Of a stretch of DNA of 32,213 bases, positions 18,687 through 26,562 are shown one piece after another; the first letter of the stretch is position 1; the number at the start of each line of letters is the position of its first letter. The notes beneath the pieces are model-generated. The model was not told where the DNA came from, searched no databases, and worked only from the letters and a program-made list of their open reading frames with translations. This stretch comes from Azoarcus sp. GTDB lineage: Bacteria > Pseudomonadota > Gammaproteobacteria > Burkholderiales > Rhodocyclaceae. The stretch covers positions 1-32,213 of the forward strand of contig JAITCV010000149.1 in assembly GCA_031282905.1 (NCBI GenBank), written 5' to 3'. Both the position numbers and the translations under genes were made by a program.

Positions 18687-19622
18687 TCAATCCGTTCCCT
18701 GAGCTGTTTCCTGAATTGCCACCAGCCGTTTCGGCCATAAGCGGCCGTCTTCTTTCCACTGTCCCAGGCCAAGGAAACCGGCCGGGCCGTAAAGGCGGAC
18801 GATTTCGTTCGCGCTGGTTTGCGCAAGGCGCAGAGCTTGGCCGTGCAGGATCTGGCTGGCGGCTTGCTGGTCGAGGGCGAGGCGTGGAAAGGCGGTGACC
18901 AGGGTGTCGACCGGGGCCAGCAGGGCATCGCGCTCGTCGAGCTTGGCGGCTTCCAGGGTCTCCAGGGTGAGGCTCGCGGCGAGGTCGAACGCGCCGATGC
19001 GGGTGCGGCGCAGGGTATGGAGGTGCGCGCCGCAACCCAGTGCCGCGCCGATGTCCATGGCAAGGCTGCGGATGTAGAAGCCCTTGGAGCAGGTGACGCG
19101 GATGACGAAACGCGCGCCGGAAAATGACAGCAGTTCCAGCGCCGAAACCGTGACCCGGCGTGGCGCGCGTTCGAGTTCGATGCCGGCGCGGGCGTATTCG
19201 TAGAGCGGTTTGCCGTCGCGTTTGAGCGCCGAATACATCGGCGGCCGTTGCTCGATGTCACCGGTATAGCAGGCGAGCGTGGCAAGGAGTTCGGTTTCGC
19301 CGGTGGTGACCGGCGCGCGCGCGACGATTTCGCCTTCGGCATCGCCGGTGGTGGTAGCGATGCCCAGTTCGACGCCAGCTTCATAAGTCTTGTCGGCGTC
19401 GAGCAACATCTGGGAGAACTTGGTCGCTTCGCCGAAAGTGAGCGGCAGGAGCCCGCTCGCCAAAGGGTCGAGAGTGCCGGTGTGTCCGGCTTTTTCGGCG
19501 TTGAGCAGGCGGCGGACGGTTTGCAGCGCGGCGTTGGAACTCAGGCCCACCGGCTTGTCGAGCAGCAACATGCCGTCGATCGCGCGGCGGATGACACGCT
19601 GCTGGATGCGCTTTTCTGCCAT
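18687..19622 (-). CDS. truB: tRNA pseudouridine(55) synthase TruB
   Basis: GMLLLDKPVGLSSNAALQ, KAGHTGTLDPLASGLLPL, GEATKFSQMLLDADKTYE, CSKGFYIRSLAMDIG. Confidence 0.95.
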   Translation of the reverse strand: MAEKRIQQRVIRRAIDGMLLLDKPVGLSSNAALQTVRRLLNAEKAGHTGTLDPLASGLLPLTFGEATKFSQMLLDADKTYEAGVELGIATTTGDAEGEIVARAPVTTGETELLATLACYTGDIEQRPPMYSALKRDGKPLYEYARAGIELERAPRRVTVSALELLSFSGARFVIRVTCSKGFYIRSLAMDIGAALGCGAHLHTLRRTRIGAFDLAASLTLETLEAAKLDERDALLAPVDTLVTAFPRLALDQQAASQILHGQALRLAQTSANEIVRLYGPAGFLGLGQWKEDGRLWPKRLVAIQETAQGTD

Positions 19623-19634
19623 CTGGATCGCCGC

Positions 19635-20006
19635 TCAGTGGCCGGTGCGCGCGGCGTCCTCGCGCACCGCCTGCTCGATCAATTGCGACAGGCGACTGCC
19701 TTCTTCCACCGAGCGGTCATAGTGGAAATGCAATTCGGGCGTGGTGTGGATGCGTACCCGCCGCCCCAGTTCGCGGCGCAGGAAACCGCTTGCCCGGCGC
19801 AAGCCTTCGAGTATGGGCGGGACGCTTTGCGCGCCGCCCATCGCGGTGAAGAACACCTTGGCATGGGCGTAGTCGGGGGTGATCTCGACGTCGGTGAGCG
19901 AGATCATGTTTATCCGGGGGTCTTTGACTTCCTGGCGGATCAGTTCGGCCAGTTCGCGGCGAATCTGCCCGGAAATGCGCTGGGCGCGTAAATACTCTTT
20001 AGGCAT
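19635..20006 (-). CDS. rbfA: Ribosome-binding factor A
   Basis: RISGQIRRELAELIRQEVKDPRINMISLTDVEITPDYAHAKVFFT, ASGFLRRELGRRVRIHTTPELHFHYD. Confidence 0.95.
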   Translation of the reverse strand: MPKEYLRAQRISGQIRRELAELIRQEVKDPRINMISLTDVEITPDYAHAKVFFTAMGGAQSVPPILEGLRRASGFLRRELGRRVRIHTTPELHFHYDRSVEEGSRLSQLIEQAVREDAARTGH

Positions 20007-20112
20007 ATTCCATCCACGGTTGAAGCAGTTGAAGGACAAATGCGCATCGCGCATTGCATTTATCATTAATCGCATGGAGTGACGTGGTAGCATGCGACGA
20101 TTCAGTCCCCAA

Positions 20113-20138
20113 GGGACGAGGCATTGCCTCGCCCCTAC
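20113..20138. repeat. Palindromic (MITE- or REP-like) element between infB and rbfA
   Basis: GGGACGAGGCATTGCCTCGCCCCTAC; the minus strand GGGGCGAGGCA/TGCCTCGTCCC pairs fully with one G-U. Confidence 0.6.
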
Positions 20139-20163
20139 AGACCATTGCAATGACGATGTGGAA

Positions 20164-23100
20164 TCAGAGCACCCTCGCCACTTCCTTGATTTCGAACACT
20201 TCGAGCTGATCGCCGATCATGATGTCATTGTAATTCTTGAGTTGCAGGCCGCATTCCTGCCCGGCGCGCGCTTCCTTGACATCGTCCTTGTAGTGCTTGA
20301 GCGATTCCAGTTCTCCCGACCACAGCACGGTGTGGTTGCGCAGCAGGCGCACCGAGGCGCTTCGCCGCACCGCGCCTTCGAGCACCAGGCAACCCGCGAT
20401 CGTGCCCACCCTGGAAATGGTGAATACTTGGCGGATTTCGACCATGCCGATGATTTCTTCGCGTTTTTCCGGCGACAGCATGCCCGAGAGCGCGGCCTTG
20501 ACCTCGTCTACGGCGTCGTAGATGATGTTGTAGTAACGGATATCGACATCGAAATTTTCGGCGAGCTTGCGCGCGCCAGCGTCGGCGCGGGTGTTGAAGC
20601 CGATGATGACCGCTTCCGAGGCCTGCGCGAGGTTGACGTCGGATTCCGAAATCGCTCCGACGGCGGCGTGGATGACTTGCACCCGCACTTCGTTGGTGGA
20701 GAGTTTTTGCAGCGATTGCACCAGCGCTTCCTGGGAGCCCTGCACGTCGGCCTTGATGATGAGCGCAAGGCTCTTGGTTTCGCCTTCGCCCATTTGTTCG
20801 AACATGTTTTCCAGCTTGGCGGCCTGCTGTTTGGCGAATTTGACATCGCGGAACTTGCCCTGGCGAAAGAGCGCGATTTCACGCGCCTTCTTTTCATCGG
20901 CGAGCACGATGGCTTCATCGCCCGCCGCGGGCACTTCCGCCAGGCCCAGGACTTCGACCGGGATTGCGGGACCGGCCGACTCGATCATCTTGCCGGATTC
21001 GTCGAGCATGGCGCGGATGCGGCCAAAGGTTGCGCCCACCAGCAGGATGTCGCCTTTTTTCAGCGTGCCCGATTGCACGAGCAGCGAGGCGACCGGGCCG
21101 CGGCCCTTGTCGAGCCGCGCTTCGACGATCAGGCCCTTGGCCGCGCCTTCGACCGCGGCTTCGAGTTCGAGCACTTCGGCCTGGAGCAACACCGATTCGA
21201 GCAGTTCGTCGACGCCTTGGCCGCTCTTTGCCGATACCGGCGCGAAAATGGTGTCGCCGCCGTATTCTTCGGGGACGACTTGCTCGGCGATCAGTTCTTG
21301 CTTGACCTTTTCGACGTTGGCCGCCGGTTTGTCGATCTTGGTGATGGCCACCACCAGCGGCACGCCCGCCGCCTTGGCGTGGTGGATGGCTTCGCGCGTC
21401 TGCGGCATCACGCCGTCATCGGCGGCGACCACCAGGATGACGATGTCGGTCGCTTGCGCGCCGCGCGCCCGCATGGCGGTGAAAGCTTCGTGTCCGGGGG
21501 TGTCGAGGAAGGTGATCATGCCGCGCGGCGTCTCCACATGGTAGGCGCCGATGTGCTGGGTGATGCCGCCCGCTTCACCGGCCGCCACCTTGGCGCGGCG
21601 GATGTAGTCGAGCAGCGAGGTCTTGCCATGGTCGACGTGGCCCATCACCGTTACCACCGGGGCGCGCGGCAGCAGTTCGTAATTCTTGTGTTCCTCAGTT
21701 TCGGCAAGGAAGGCGTCGGGGTCGTCGAGCTTGGCGGCGAACGCCTTGTGGCCCATGTCCTCGACGATGATCATCGCGGTTTCCTGGTCGAGCACCTGGT
21801 TGATGGTGACCATCATGCCCATCTTCATCAGCGCCTTGATGACTTCGGTGGCCTTGATCGCCATCTTGTGGGCGAGATCGGCGACCGAAATGGTCTCGGG
21901 CACGTGCACTTCGCGCACGATGGGTTCGGAGGGGGCCTGGAAGGATGAACGCTCCTCGGCATGTCCGCCGCGGCCACGGCCATGACCATGACGGCCACCG
22001 CCCTTGGCGCCGCGCCAGGAATTGCCTCCCGTGCCAGCGGCGCCGACTTCGCCACGAGTCTTGAGACCGCGGCGCTTGCTGCTTTCGCTTTCGCGCTCGG
22101 GGGTGCGCTTGCTGGTTTTGTCCTCGGCCTTGGCCGGGCGGTGCAGGGTGCCCGAAGCGCCACTCTTGGCGACCGGTTTGACCGCTGGTTTGACCACCGG
22201 TTTGGCCACTGGCTTGGCGGGTGTCCTGGCGGGCGGAGCGGCAGTGGGGAGCGCGGCGGGTTTTTCCTTTTGTTGCCGTTGCTCGGCAATGCGGGTTTCT
22301 TCTTCCTGGCGGCGGGTTTCGGCGGCAGCCTTGGTGGCGGCTTCGCGGGCCTGACGGGCGTGCAAGTCGGCTTGCTGACGTTCACGCAGTTCGCGGTGGC
22401 GGCGCGATTCCTGCTCGCGCGCGGCGCGCTCTTCATCGCTCAGGATCTGGGTGATCGGCGGTGGCGGCAGCGGCGTGGCGCGTTTTTTCACTACCACGCG
22501 CGCGGATTTGTCCGCTTCGGCCTTGGTTTGGTTTGCCTGGTTTTTCCTGGATTGCCCGTTGGATTGCCCATTGCCCGGCCTGGCATTGCCCGGCCTGTTT
22601 TTGGCGCCGGTTCTGGATTCGGATCTGGCGGACGGGGCGTTTTTGGGGGTAGCGACATGCTTGGGGGGGGGCGCACTGGGCACGTTGGCTACCGTGGCCG
22701 TATCGGCTAGGCTCACATCGGCCACCGCCTCGGTCACGGCAACCGCATCGGCAGCCACATTGGCTGGCGCTTCGACGGCTTCGCCGACTTCGCCGACTTC
22801 GTTGACGCTGGTGAGGTTCGATTCGGCTGCTGGTGCCGGTTCAGGCAATGTTTCAGCGACCGTGGCGGTGTCGACCGCCACCGCCGCGACTGCGGCCATG
22901 GTGTCGTCTACAGGAATGTCCGCGGGAATGTCCGCCGCCTCGGCCGCGACGCTGGTCGCGGTTTCGGGCGCGCCTTTTCCTTCGTTGGTTTCCACGCTTT
23001 CATCGCGCTTGACGAAGGTCCGCTTCTTTCTCACCTCGACCTGCACCGTGCGGGCGCGGCCAGAGGCGTCGGTGGCGCGAATCTCGGAAGTCTGTTTGCG

Positions 23101-23298
23101 GGTCACGGTGATCTTGCTTTTCTTCGTGCCGCCGCCATGCGAACCGCGCAGGTATTCGAGCAAGCGCGATTTATCCTGCTCGGTCAGGAAATCATCCTCG
23201 CCCGTCTTATCGACGCCGGCACGCTTGAGTTGTTCGAGCAGCGACCCAGCGGGCATTTTCAGCTCGCTGGCAAACTGGGTAACGCTTATGCCTTCCAT
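20164..23298 (-). CDS. infB: Translation initiation factor IF-2
   Basis: [62 protein letters not shown]2 N-terminal motif [11 protein letters not shown]. Confidence 0.97.
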
Positions 23299-23313: not shown

Positions 23314-24789
23314 TCATTCTTCGAACCAATGGGCGCGCGCGACGGAAATCAACGCCTTGGCGCGTTCCTCGTCGATGGCGGTGATGTCGACCAGTTCATC
23401 GACCGCGAGATCGGCGAGATCGTCGCGGGTACGGATACCTTGGTCGACGAGCCGGGCCGCCAACGCCTTGTCCATGCCATCGAGATCGAGCAGATCATCG
23501 GCGGCGCCTTCGAGTGTTTCCTCCGTGACGATGGCCTCGGTCAGCAGCACGTCACGGGCGCGATTGCGCAGCTCGTTGACCGTGGCTTCATCGAAATCCT
23601 CGATGCCGAGCATTTCGGCCAGCGGCACGTAGGCAATTTCTTCGAGCGAAGAAAACCCCTCGTCGATCAGGATGTTGGCCACATCCTCGTCGACGTCGAG
23701 TTTTGCCATGAACAGATCGCGCAACGCGCCGCGCTCATGCTCGGCGCGAGTGGCGGATTCCTGTTCGCTCATCAGGTTGATCGTCCATCCGGTCAGCTCG
23801 GAGGCAAGCTTGACGTTTTGGCCATTGCGTCCGATCGAGATCGCCAGGTTGTCTTCATCGACCACCACATCCATGGCATGGGCTTCCTCGTCGACCACGA
23901 TGGAGACGACCTCGGCGGGTTGGAGCGCGGCGATCACGAACTGCGCCGGGTCGGGCGCCCACACGATGATGTCGACCTGCTCGTTGCTGACTTCGCCGCG
24001 CACCGCCGTCACCCGCGAACCGCGCAGCCCCACGCAGGTGCCGATCGGGTCGATGCGCTGGTCATTGGCCTTGACCGCGATCTTGGCACGCAGGCCGGGG
24101 TCGCGCGCGCAGCCCTTGATCTCGAGCAGACCGTCCTCGATTTCGGGCACTTCCAGCTCGAAGAGCTTGACCAGGAATTCGGGCGCGGTACGCGACAAGA
24201 TGAGCTGCGGGCCGCGCACGCCACGGTCGATCTTGAGCAGATAGGCTTTCACCCGGTCGCCGACGCGCAGGTTCTCGCGCGGGATTTGCTGGTCGCGCGG
24301 CAGCACCGCCTCCATGCGGCCCACCTCGATGATTGCGTTGCCACGCTCGATGCGCTTGATCGCGCCGGAGACGAGGAATTCCTCGCGTTCGAGGAAATCG
24401 TTGAGCACCTGCTCGCGTTCGGCATCGCGGATTCTTTGCAGGATGACCTGTTTGGCGGCTTGCGCGCCGATGCGGCCGAAGTCGACCGGTTCGAGTCCTT
24501 CCTCGATGTATTCGCCGATTTCGATGTCGGCACAGATGTCGCGCGCGTCGATGAGGCCCATCTGGGCCTCATCGTTGGTCACTTCCTCGTCGGGCAGCAC
24601 GATCCAGCGGCGGAAGGATTCATAATCGCCGGTTTCGCGGTTGATGATGACATGCACATCGGCATCGTCATGGACGCGTTTCTTGGTCGCGGAGGCCAGC
24701 GCCGATTCCAGTGCGGCGAACACGATGTCCTTGGCAACGTTCTTTTCGCGCGCCAGCGCGTCTACAAGCAGCAGAATTTCGCGGCTCAT
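23314..24789 (-). CDS. nusA: Transcription termination/antitermination protein NusA
   Basis: [17 protein letters not shown]1 and KH regions ([31 protein letters not shown]), C-terminal acidic HhH repeats. Confidence 0.96.
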
Positions 24790-24816: not shown

Positions 24817-25257
24817 TCAGAATTTCGGAACAAGACGCGCCCGGTCGAGTTCGTCGAAAGGCACGACGAGTTCGCCCTGATCGGTATCGACCACGACCGC
24901 GCCTTCGCGCAGCCCCTGGAGCACGCCGGTAAAATTTCGCTGCTCGCCTACCGGCAGCGCGGTGCGAAGCCGGATCTCCCGGCCCGCGAAGCGCTCGAAA
25001 TCCGCTGGTTTGATGAGCGGACGGTCAAGCCCCGGCGAGGACACCTCCAGCCGGTCATAATCGACGTTCTCGACTTCGAACAACCGGGTCAATTGGTTGC
25101 TCACCATGACGCAATCGTCTACGGTCACGCCGCGTTCAATGTCGATGAAGACTCTGATGAGTCGGCCACGCGGCGAACGCTCGACGACCACCAGCTCGAA
25201 ACCGAGCCCGGTCACCGCCTGTTCGATCAAGGCATCCACGTTGAGCACACCCATCAA
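24817..25257 (-). CDS. rimP: Ribosome maturation factor RimP
   Basis: VTVDDCVMVSNQLTRLFEVE, YDRLEVSSPGLDRPLIKPADFERFAG. Confidence 0.94.
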   Translation of the reverse strand: MMGVLNVDALIEQAVTGLGFELVVVERSPRGRLIRVFIDIERGVTVDDCVMVSNQLTRLFEVENVDYDRLEVSSPGLDRPLIKPADFERFAGREIRLRTALPVGEQRNFTGVLQGLREGAVVVDTDQGELVVPFDELDRARLVPKF

Positions 25258-25272
25258 TCCGCCACCACAAAT

Positions 25273-25292
25273 AAAAAATGGGCGTTACGCCC
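25273..25292 (-). terminator. Second leader terminator upstream of rimP
   Basis: Minus strand GGGCGT-A-ACGCCC followed by ATTTTTTAT. Confidence 0.75.
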
Positions 25293-25309
25293 TTGTTTGA
25301 CCACAACTG

Positions 25310-25334
25310 AAAAACAGGCTCTAAGTGAGCCTGT
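25310..25334 (-). terminator. First leader terminator upstream of rimP
   Basis: Minus strand ACAGGCT-CACTTAG-AGCCTGT followed by TTTTC. Confidence 0.7.
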
Positions 25335-25348
25335 CCCGAAGCCTGACG

Positions 25349-25377
25349 AGTATAGCGGCGAAAACGTTTCCTGGCAA
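25349..25377 (-). promoter_or_regulatory. Sigma70-type promoter of the rimP-nusA-infB-rbfA-truB operon
   Basis: Minus strand TTGCCA (25377-25372), 17-nt spacer, TATACT (25354-25349). Confidence 0.7.
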
Positions 25378-25630
25378 AGCGGAGAGGATTCCACGCCGGG
25401 CTTGCATCACGCCGCCCACGAAATCCTGTCGCGGCGCGGCGGGATTGTCTGCTTGCCTACATTTTGTGGTCAACACTACACAAAAAAAGATATAACCCTA
25501 AATAAATATAACGTAAGTATTTGATTTATATGAAAATAATAGCTGGCGTGGACTTTGCTGGATTCTCTTTCGCTATATTTCAAGGAAGCATGCATGGATG
25601 CCGGAACGATGAAAACGACCGCGCCATCGG

Positions 25631-25923
25631 CTGATTCTCGACCTTGCCCTTGTCCCCGGCGAACTCGTCGCCCTGCTTGGCATCAACGCGGGGAAGAGCA
25701 CCCTGCTCGGATTGCTGCGGCCGGAGAGCGGGGAAATTCGCCTGGACGGCCAGCGGCTGGCCGACTGTTCGCACCGCCCGGCATCTGGCCTATGTTCCGC
25801 AAGCCCACGCTGCGTTTTGCCGCAACCGCGTGTCATCCTGTTCGACCAAGGTATCATCCTCGCCGACGACCCCGGCCAGATACTCACCACCGCCCTGCTC
25901 GAACGCATGCGGCGCACCATGTA
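25631..25923 (+). pseudogene. Decayed ABC transporter ATP-binding protein, possibly iron- or heme-uptake type (FecE/HmuV-like)
   Basis: LDLALVPGELVALLGINAGKSTLLGLLRPESGEIRLDGQRLAD, then ARHLAYVPQAHAAF in another frame, then VILFDQGIILADDPGQILTTALLE back in the first frame; Walker B and signature regions missing. Confidence 0.75.
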
Positions 25924-25965
25924 AATGGTATAGAATTTCTCGATTTCCCTTCAAGGAGCCATACG

Positions 25966-26562
25966 ATGTGCCAGACTGAAACCCTCTCCGTTGTCATCAC
26001 CCCGGTCCCGAACTCAAACCCGATCCCGACCGTCAGCCACAAATGCGCCTGCGGCGGACATGGCGGCTTCGCCGGGCGCAAGGTGCCGCCCGGCCACGAT
26101 CTGGAATACCCATCCGTCGACTTTCCGCCATCGGGCTTCATCGCCGAAGTCGGCGAAACCGCCTTGCGCGCCTTGGTGCTGCGTCACCACACCCTGCTGC
26201 GCCAGCATGCGGAAATCGGCCATCTTTTTGCCAGGGACGATAAGGTGTTTGCCGAACGTGTGGCAAAAATCGCCGATTACATCGTCGAAGCCTGCGGTGG
26301 CCCGAGCGCCTATTCCGATGCCGAAGGCAGCGATGTGTGCATACGCACTCGCCATTTCCCGTTCGAGATCGACGAACGCGCGCGAGAAATATGGCTGGAA
26401 AAACTGTTCGTGGCCCTGGGCGAAACGCAATTCTCGCTGCTCGCCAAACAAACCTATTGGACATGGCTGGAAGCCATGTCGATACGCATGATCAATCGGC
26501 GCCACGCCAAGGCCCAGCCGACGCGGATCGGCTTCGACGAAGCGGTCGGGCGTTTTGGCTGA
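25966..26562 (+). CDS. Truncated hemoglobin-like (group II) protein with a Cys/Gly/His N-terminal extension
   Basis: LRALVLRHHTLLRQHAEIGHLFA...VCIRTRHFPFEIDERAREIWLEKLFVAL resembles the group II trHb RMRHxPFxIxxxERDAWL region; RBS AAGGAG; N-terminus CACGGHGG. Confidence 0.6.
   Translation: MCQTETLSVVITPVPNSNPIPTVSHKCACGGHGGFAGRKVPPGHDLEYPSVDFPPSGFIAEVGETALRALVLRHHTLLRQHAEIGHLFARDDKVFAERVAKIADYIVEACGGPSAYSDAEGSDVCIRTRHFPFEIDERAREIWLEKLFVALGETQFSLLAKQTYWTWLEAMSIRMINRRHAKAQPTRIGFDEAVGRFG

Follow-up and report, generated by a model that had tools for sequence, protein, structure and literature searches.

The leader of the rimP-nusA-infB-rbfA-truB operon in this genome is best read as a rimP-leader transcription attenuator, through which NusA would exert negative feedback on its own operon by way of termination in the leader (probability roughly 0.7). 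It lies on the minus strand of the window, the whole 32,213-nt stretch of DNA that was analysed. Every betaproteobacterial rimP leader collected carries a short GGGC stem predicted to act as a terminator, often near a sigma70-type promoter. A preliminary description of the locus had proposed an attenuator with two terminators in series. The attenuator itself stands as the best reading and is of a kind published elsewhere; the two-terminator device is not conserved, and only the second hairpin is a conserved terminator. The feedback proposed there is plausible and is already known in kind.

The source assembly is a metagenome-derived Rhodocyclaceae genome of 2.67 Mb in 259 contigs, with an estimated completeness of 87.5%. 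The named relatives closest to it are metagenomic assemblies that carry the label 'Azoarcus sp.' or Betaproteobacteria. Their isolate names look like those used in termite-gut surveys, and it is from such names that the family and habitat are deduced. The operon is composed of rimP (24817..25254, minus strand, NF000929), whose ATG is at 25254, followed on the same strand by nusA (23314..24789, TIGR01953), infB, encoding IF2 (20164..23298, TIGR00487), rbfA (19635..20150, TIGR00082), and truB (18687..19622, TIGR00431). These NCBIfam and TIGR family matches bear out the gene content first assigned from the letters alone. The claim that no tRNA lies upstream also holds, as a tRNA search of the window returned none. 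None of the minus-strand frames upstream of rimP matched an NCBIfam family. The hairpins were also considered as terminators of an upstream gene or tRNA, and this was rejected because the window has no tRNA and the upstream minus-strand frames have no family match. A few relatives do have tRNAs no more than about 2 kb from rimP, most of them on the other strand. A long plus-strand frame (25555-26562) contains a bacterial globin domain (PF01152) that is confined to its second half. By eye, the first part of this frame (~25600-25900) resembles a degenerate ABC ATPase whose Walker A motif is damaged; a Pfam search of that part found no domain.

The promoter consists of a -35 element, TTGCCA (25372..25377, minus strand), and a -10 element, TATACT (25349..25354, minus strand), separated by a 17-nt spacer. 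As first described, this promoter is followed by two hairpins, each with a U-tract. From the position of the -10 element, transcription would start near 25342 and yield a leader of about 88 nt. The whole leader folds with a z-score of -3.35, and 18 nt separate the end of the last T-tract from the rimP ATG. For comparison, rimP leaders were gathered from Rhodocyclaceae and other betaproteobacteria, giving 115 distinct sequences. Within the genus, the best sigma70-type site in most species is TTGCCA with a spacing of 16-17 nt and a -10 element of TAGAAT, TAAAAT, TATACT, or TATAAT, located 50-94 nt upstream of the GGGC stem. The retention of both elements supports a local promoter.

Hairpin 2 (P3) is the terminator stem of the rimP-leader. 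It has the form GGGCG-UAA-CGCCC (25280..25292, minus strand) and is followed, after a single A, by a U6 tract (25273..25278, minus strand). Its folding energy is -8.5 kcal/mol, with a z-score of -3.1. The leaders of relatives had been suggested as a check on the hairpins, and in all 115 a GGGC-N2..16-GCCC stem precedes a tail rich in T (a minimum of 5-6 in 10), against 2.0 expected from dinucleotide shuffles. The tail after the stem is conserved as A-T6-A/G-TTTG, and the AUUUGUG that follows the U6 tract in the window is conserved as well. Counting from the end of the stem, positions 2-6 are T in 112-115 of the 115 leaders, a count made on leaders already filtered for T-rich tails. A strict version of the motif, GGGCN{2,8}GCCCATTTTTT, has 60 matches in 61 genomes, and comparison of motif and rimP coordinates placed 49 of them directly at rimP. 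The reversed motif has 3 matches in the same genomes. The only strict match in the genome studied here is the leader of this rimP. The distribution of the GGGC terminator extends beyond the coverage of the Rfam rimP model. What is conserved is the GGGC sequence and not pairing alone, which suggests that the sequence itself is recognised.

The leader is also relevant to an existing Rfam family, RF02420 (Bp1_162), which was described as a predicted Burkholderia sRNA, Bp1_Cand612_SIPHT (PMC3521395). Among 349 genomes of the order, RF02420 scores above its cut-off in three, and in each the match covers the opposite strand of the GGGC terminator that immediately precedes rimP; a fourth, sub-threshold match falls at the same site. 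The observation covers rimP leaders L138, L139, L140, and L141 and positions 25256-25335 of the window. RF02420 apparently models the Burkholderiaceae rimP-leader on the wrong, antisense strand.

Hairpin 1 (P1) lies between the promoter and hairpin 2 (25314..25334, minus strand). Its stem arms, ACAGGCT and AGCCTGT, enclose the loop CACTTAG, and a U5 tract follows (25310..25314, minus strand). Folded with the U-tract, it reaches -15.8 kcal/mol and a z-score of -4.2, and none of 200 shuffles folds as well. A simple terminator scan of the minus strand listed hairpin 2 and missed hairpin 1, probably because the stem of hairpin 1 also pairs with its own U-tract. Covariation in relatives had been proposed as a check and was found. 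Among 13 congeners whose hairpin 1 is short, pairing is kept in 96% of cells, and two-sided changes occur in 6 of the 8 pairs; none of 500 shuffles reaches this level, and sliding the partners abolishes the signal. The region upstream of the linker is also more stable than its shuffles, with a mean z-score of about -3 across 42 leaders and values below -1 in 40 of them. This pattern of substitution marks hairpin 1 as a genuine RNA hairpin across the genus, though one that rarely scores as a terminator. These results also bear on whether the hairpins arose by chance, for which one could cite that motifs resembling terminators exceed expectation only modestly in this stretch of the window (4, compared with 1.3 +/- 1.2 in shuffles). 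Chance is very improbable and was rejected, chiefly on the evidence of homology, given that hairpin 1 covaries, hairpin 2 recurs in 115 of 115 leaders, and the promoter is kept in the genus.

The U5 tract is not conserved; relatives have UUUCCGG in its place. A terminator score in the style of d'Aubenton-Carafa was computed with our own script and is a crude measure. By this score, hairpin 1 is negative in nearly all relatives. Scores above zero for an upstream terminator occur in 5 of the 115 leaders, namely the window (+12.3) and 4 of the remaining 114, so a tandem pair of terminators is not a conserved feature. The tandem appearance would be mostly particular to this genome. A distinct possibility, held at less than even odds, is that hairpin 2 alone terminates and hairpin 1 is a 5' stem, serving as a pause site or as 5' end protection, with an incidental U5 tract in this genome. 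It draws on the covariation of a genus hairpin that nevertheless precedes UUUCCGG and scores negatively, and on several other betaproteobacterial families that lack hairpin 1 and have the GGGC stem 6-20 nt from the predicted start. It is opposed by the scores of the window, where hairpin 1 has +12.3 and hairpin 2 has -9.1, the opposite of what is seen in relatives.

The short distance between the GGGC stem and the predicted start in some families is typical of a 5' protective stem, and the hairpins could accordingly act after transcription, through 5' stabilisation or rimP translation and not through termination. Such a role is quite unlikely: conservation of the U-tract almost matches that of the stem, a pure stabiliser needs no U-tract, and termination or NusA control has been published for the homologous leaders of E. 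coli and B. subtilis.

The score of -9.1 for hairpin 2 is the lowest of all 115 leaders; the second lowest score is +10.0, and half of the leaders lie around or above the median of 29. It is low because the window has AAGGGC..GCCCAU where relatives have AUGGGC..GCCCAU, with loss of the closing U-A pair. In this genome, hairpin 1 appears to have gained the terminator strength that hairpin 2 lost, as judged from one metagenome assembly and a crude score. This shift between hairpins would be the sole unusual point of the leader. A tentative and rather doubtful extension is that the attenuator has switched, the ancestral GGGC hairpin having fallen below working strength while the upstream hairpin, which in most congeners would not terminate, gained a U-tract and took over. 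If true, the switch would amount to a natural exchange of terminators, and could show which part of the rimP leader is recognised by NusA or another factor. A degraded GGGC stem together with a gained upstream terminator would likewise offer a natural test of sequence-specific recognition.

The two hairpins are joined by a 17-nt linker, CAGUUGUGGUCAAACAA (25293..25309, minus strand), that has diverged from the CCGGUUG-N4-CAACAGG linker of relatives and has CAGUUG where they have CCGGUUG. The relatives' form is conserved upstream of the terminator in many Rhodocyclaceae (e.g., leaders L093, L065, and L044), and matches to it occur in 16 of 101 genomes of the family, one in each. The linker was considered as a further hairpin (P2), but many congeners, Zoogloea, and the window all have an interrupted stem there, and no structural claim is made for it. 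Inspection by eye and folding turned up no conserved antiterminator that would pair with the GGGC stem.

In the NusA feedback reading, RNA polymerase would start near 25342, and a fraction of transcripts would stop at intrinsic terminators before rimP while the remainder reads through. Partial termination in the leader would set the supply of rimP-nusA-infB mRNA. NusA is expected to promote the formation of weak terminator hairpins, such that a rise in NusA would increase termination and lower operon mRNA. In relatives, the GGGC..GCCC hairpin 2 would terminate and hairpin 1 would form a structured 5' stem. In this genome, with a U-tract on hairpin 1 and a weakened hairpin 2, both hairpins, or mainly hairpin 1, may terminate. 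In B. subtilis, the contribution of NusA is greatest where the hairpin is weak or the U-tract interrupted (PMC12288461), and the weak hairpin 2 of the window would by inference fit a NusA-dependent terminator.

Read-through might instead be set by NusG-dependent pausing or by the supply of RimP or ribosomes, and not by the NusA level. The conserved U6-R-UUUG tail contains TTNTTT, the pause motif of B. subtilis NusG, in the window (25271-25278) and in 115 relatives. That type of NusG is said to be widespread outside the gammaproteobacteria, and the NusG proteins of relatives, aligned by eye, have S-T or N-T at the matching positions. RimP feedback was raised as a possibility by Naville and Gautheret (PMC2965389). 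Control of this kind is unlikely here, as any U-tract alone yields TTNTTT and the published genetics favour NusA. A search for nusG in the assembly found none, while congeners have it; the absence is most likely due to the incompleteness of the assembly (87.5%).

Among known systems, the gammaproteobacterial rimP leader (RF01770) also has two tandem hairpins, each with a U-tract, at similar spacing and with GGGC..GCCC in the second. Its first hairpin differs in sequence from that of the window, which in most relatives is not a terminator. Membership in RF01770 was rejected: the window leader scores 19.1 bits (E 1.2), below the cut-off of 47, and none of 20 relatives reaches that cut-off. The likeness to the tandem form is probably convergent and of independent origin, because most betaproteobacterial leaders lack an upstream terminator.

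In E. coli, the metY-nusA-infB leader has the P2 promoter downstream of metY and the terminators t1 and t2 upstream of rimP. Operon transcripts rise as NusA-dependent termination falls, and NusA lowers them (PMC6511841). The window shares the order of a promoter, two predicted terminators, and then rimP, and differs in having no tRNA gene and no upstream P-1 or P0 promoters. In B. subtilis, NusA is reported to control its own synthesis by stimulating termination in its 5' leader (Mondal 2016, as cited in PMC12288461). There, too, a terminator stands ahead of the NusA operon, and the proposed logic is the same; the effect of NusA was demonstrated in that distant phylum, whereas in the window it is a predicted one.

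The closest comparison is with the general rimP-leader, which Naville and Gautheret (2010) called the most ubiquitous of attenuators and for which they favoured NusA as effector (PMC2965389). Its general form is GGGc..gCCC with a U-stretch, 4-130 nt before rimP, and no antiterminator is visible in it (PMC2965389, Figure 2b). The window has GGGCG-UAA-CGCCC-A-U6 (25292-25273), ending 18 nt before the rimP ATG in a rimP-nusA-infB operon, and the motif is specific to rimP leaders (the sole match in its own genome and 49 of 60 in 61 genomes). It differs from the general form in the extra covarying upstream hairpin of Rhodocyclaceae and in a GGGC hairpin that is unusually weak in this genome. The leader has the tested features of the general rimP-leader and is predicted to terminate transcription prematurely.
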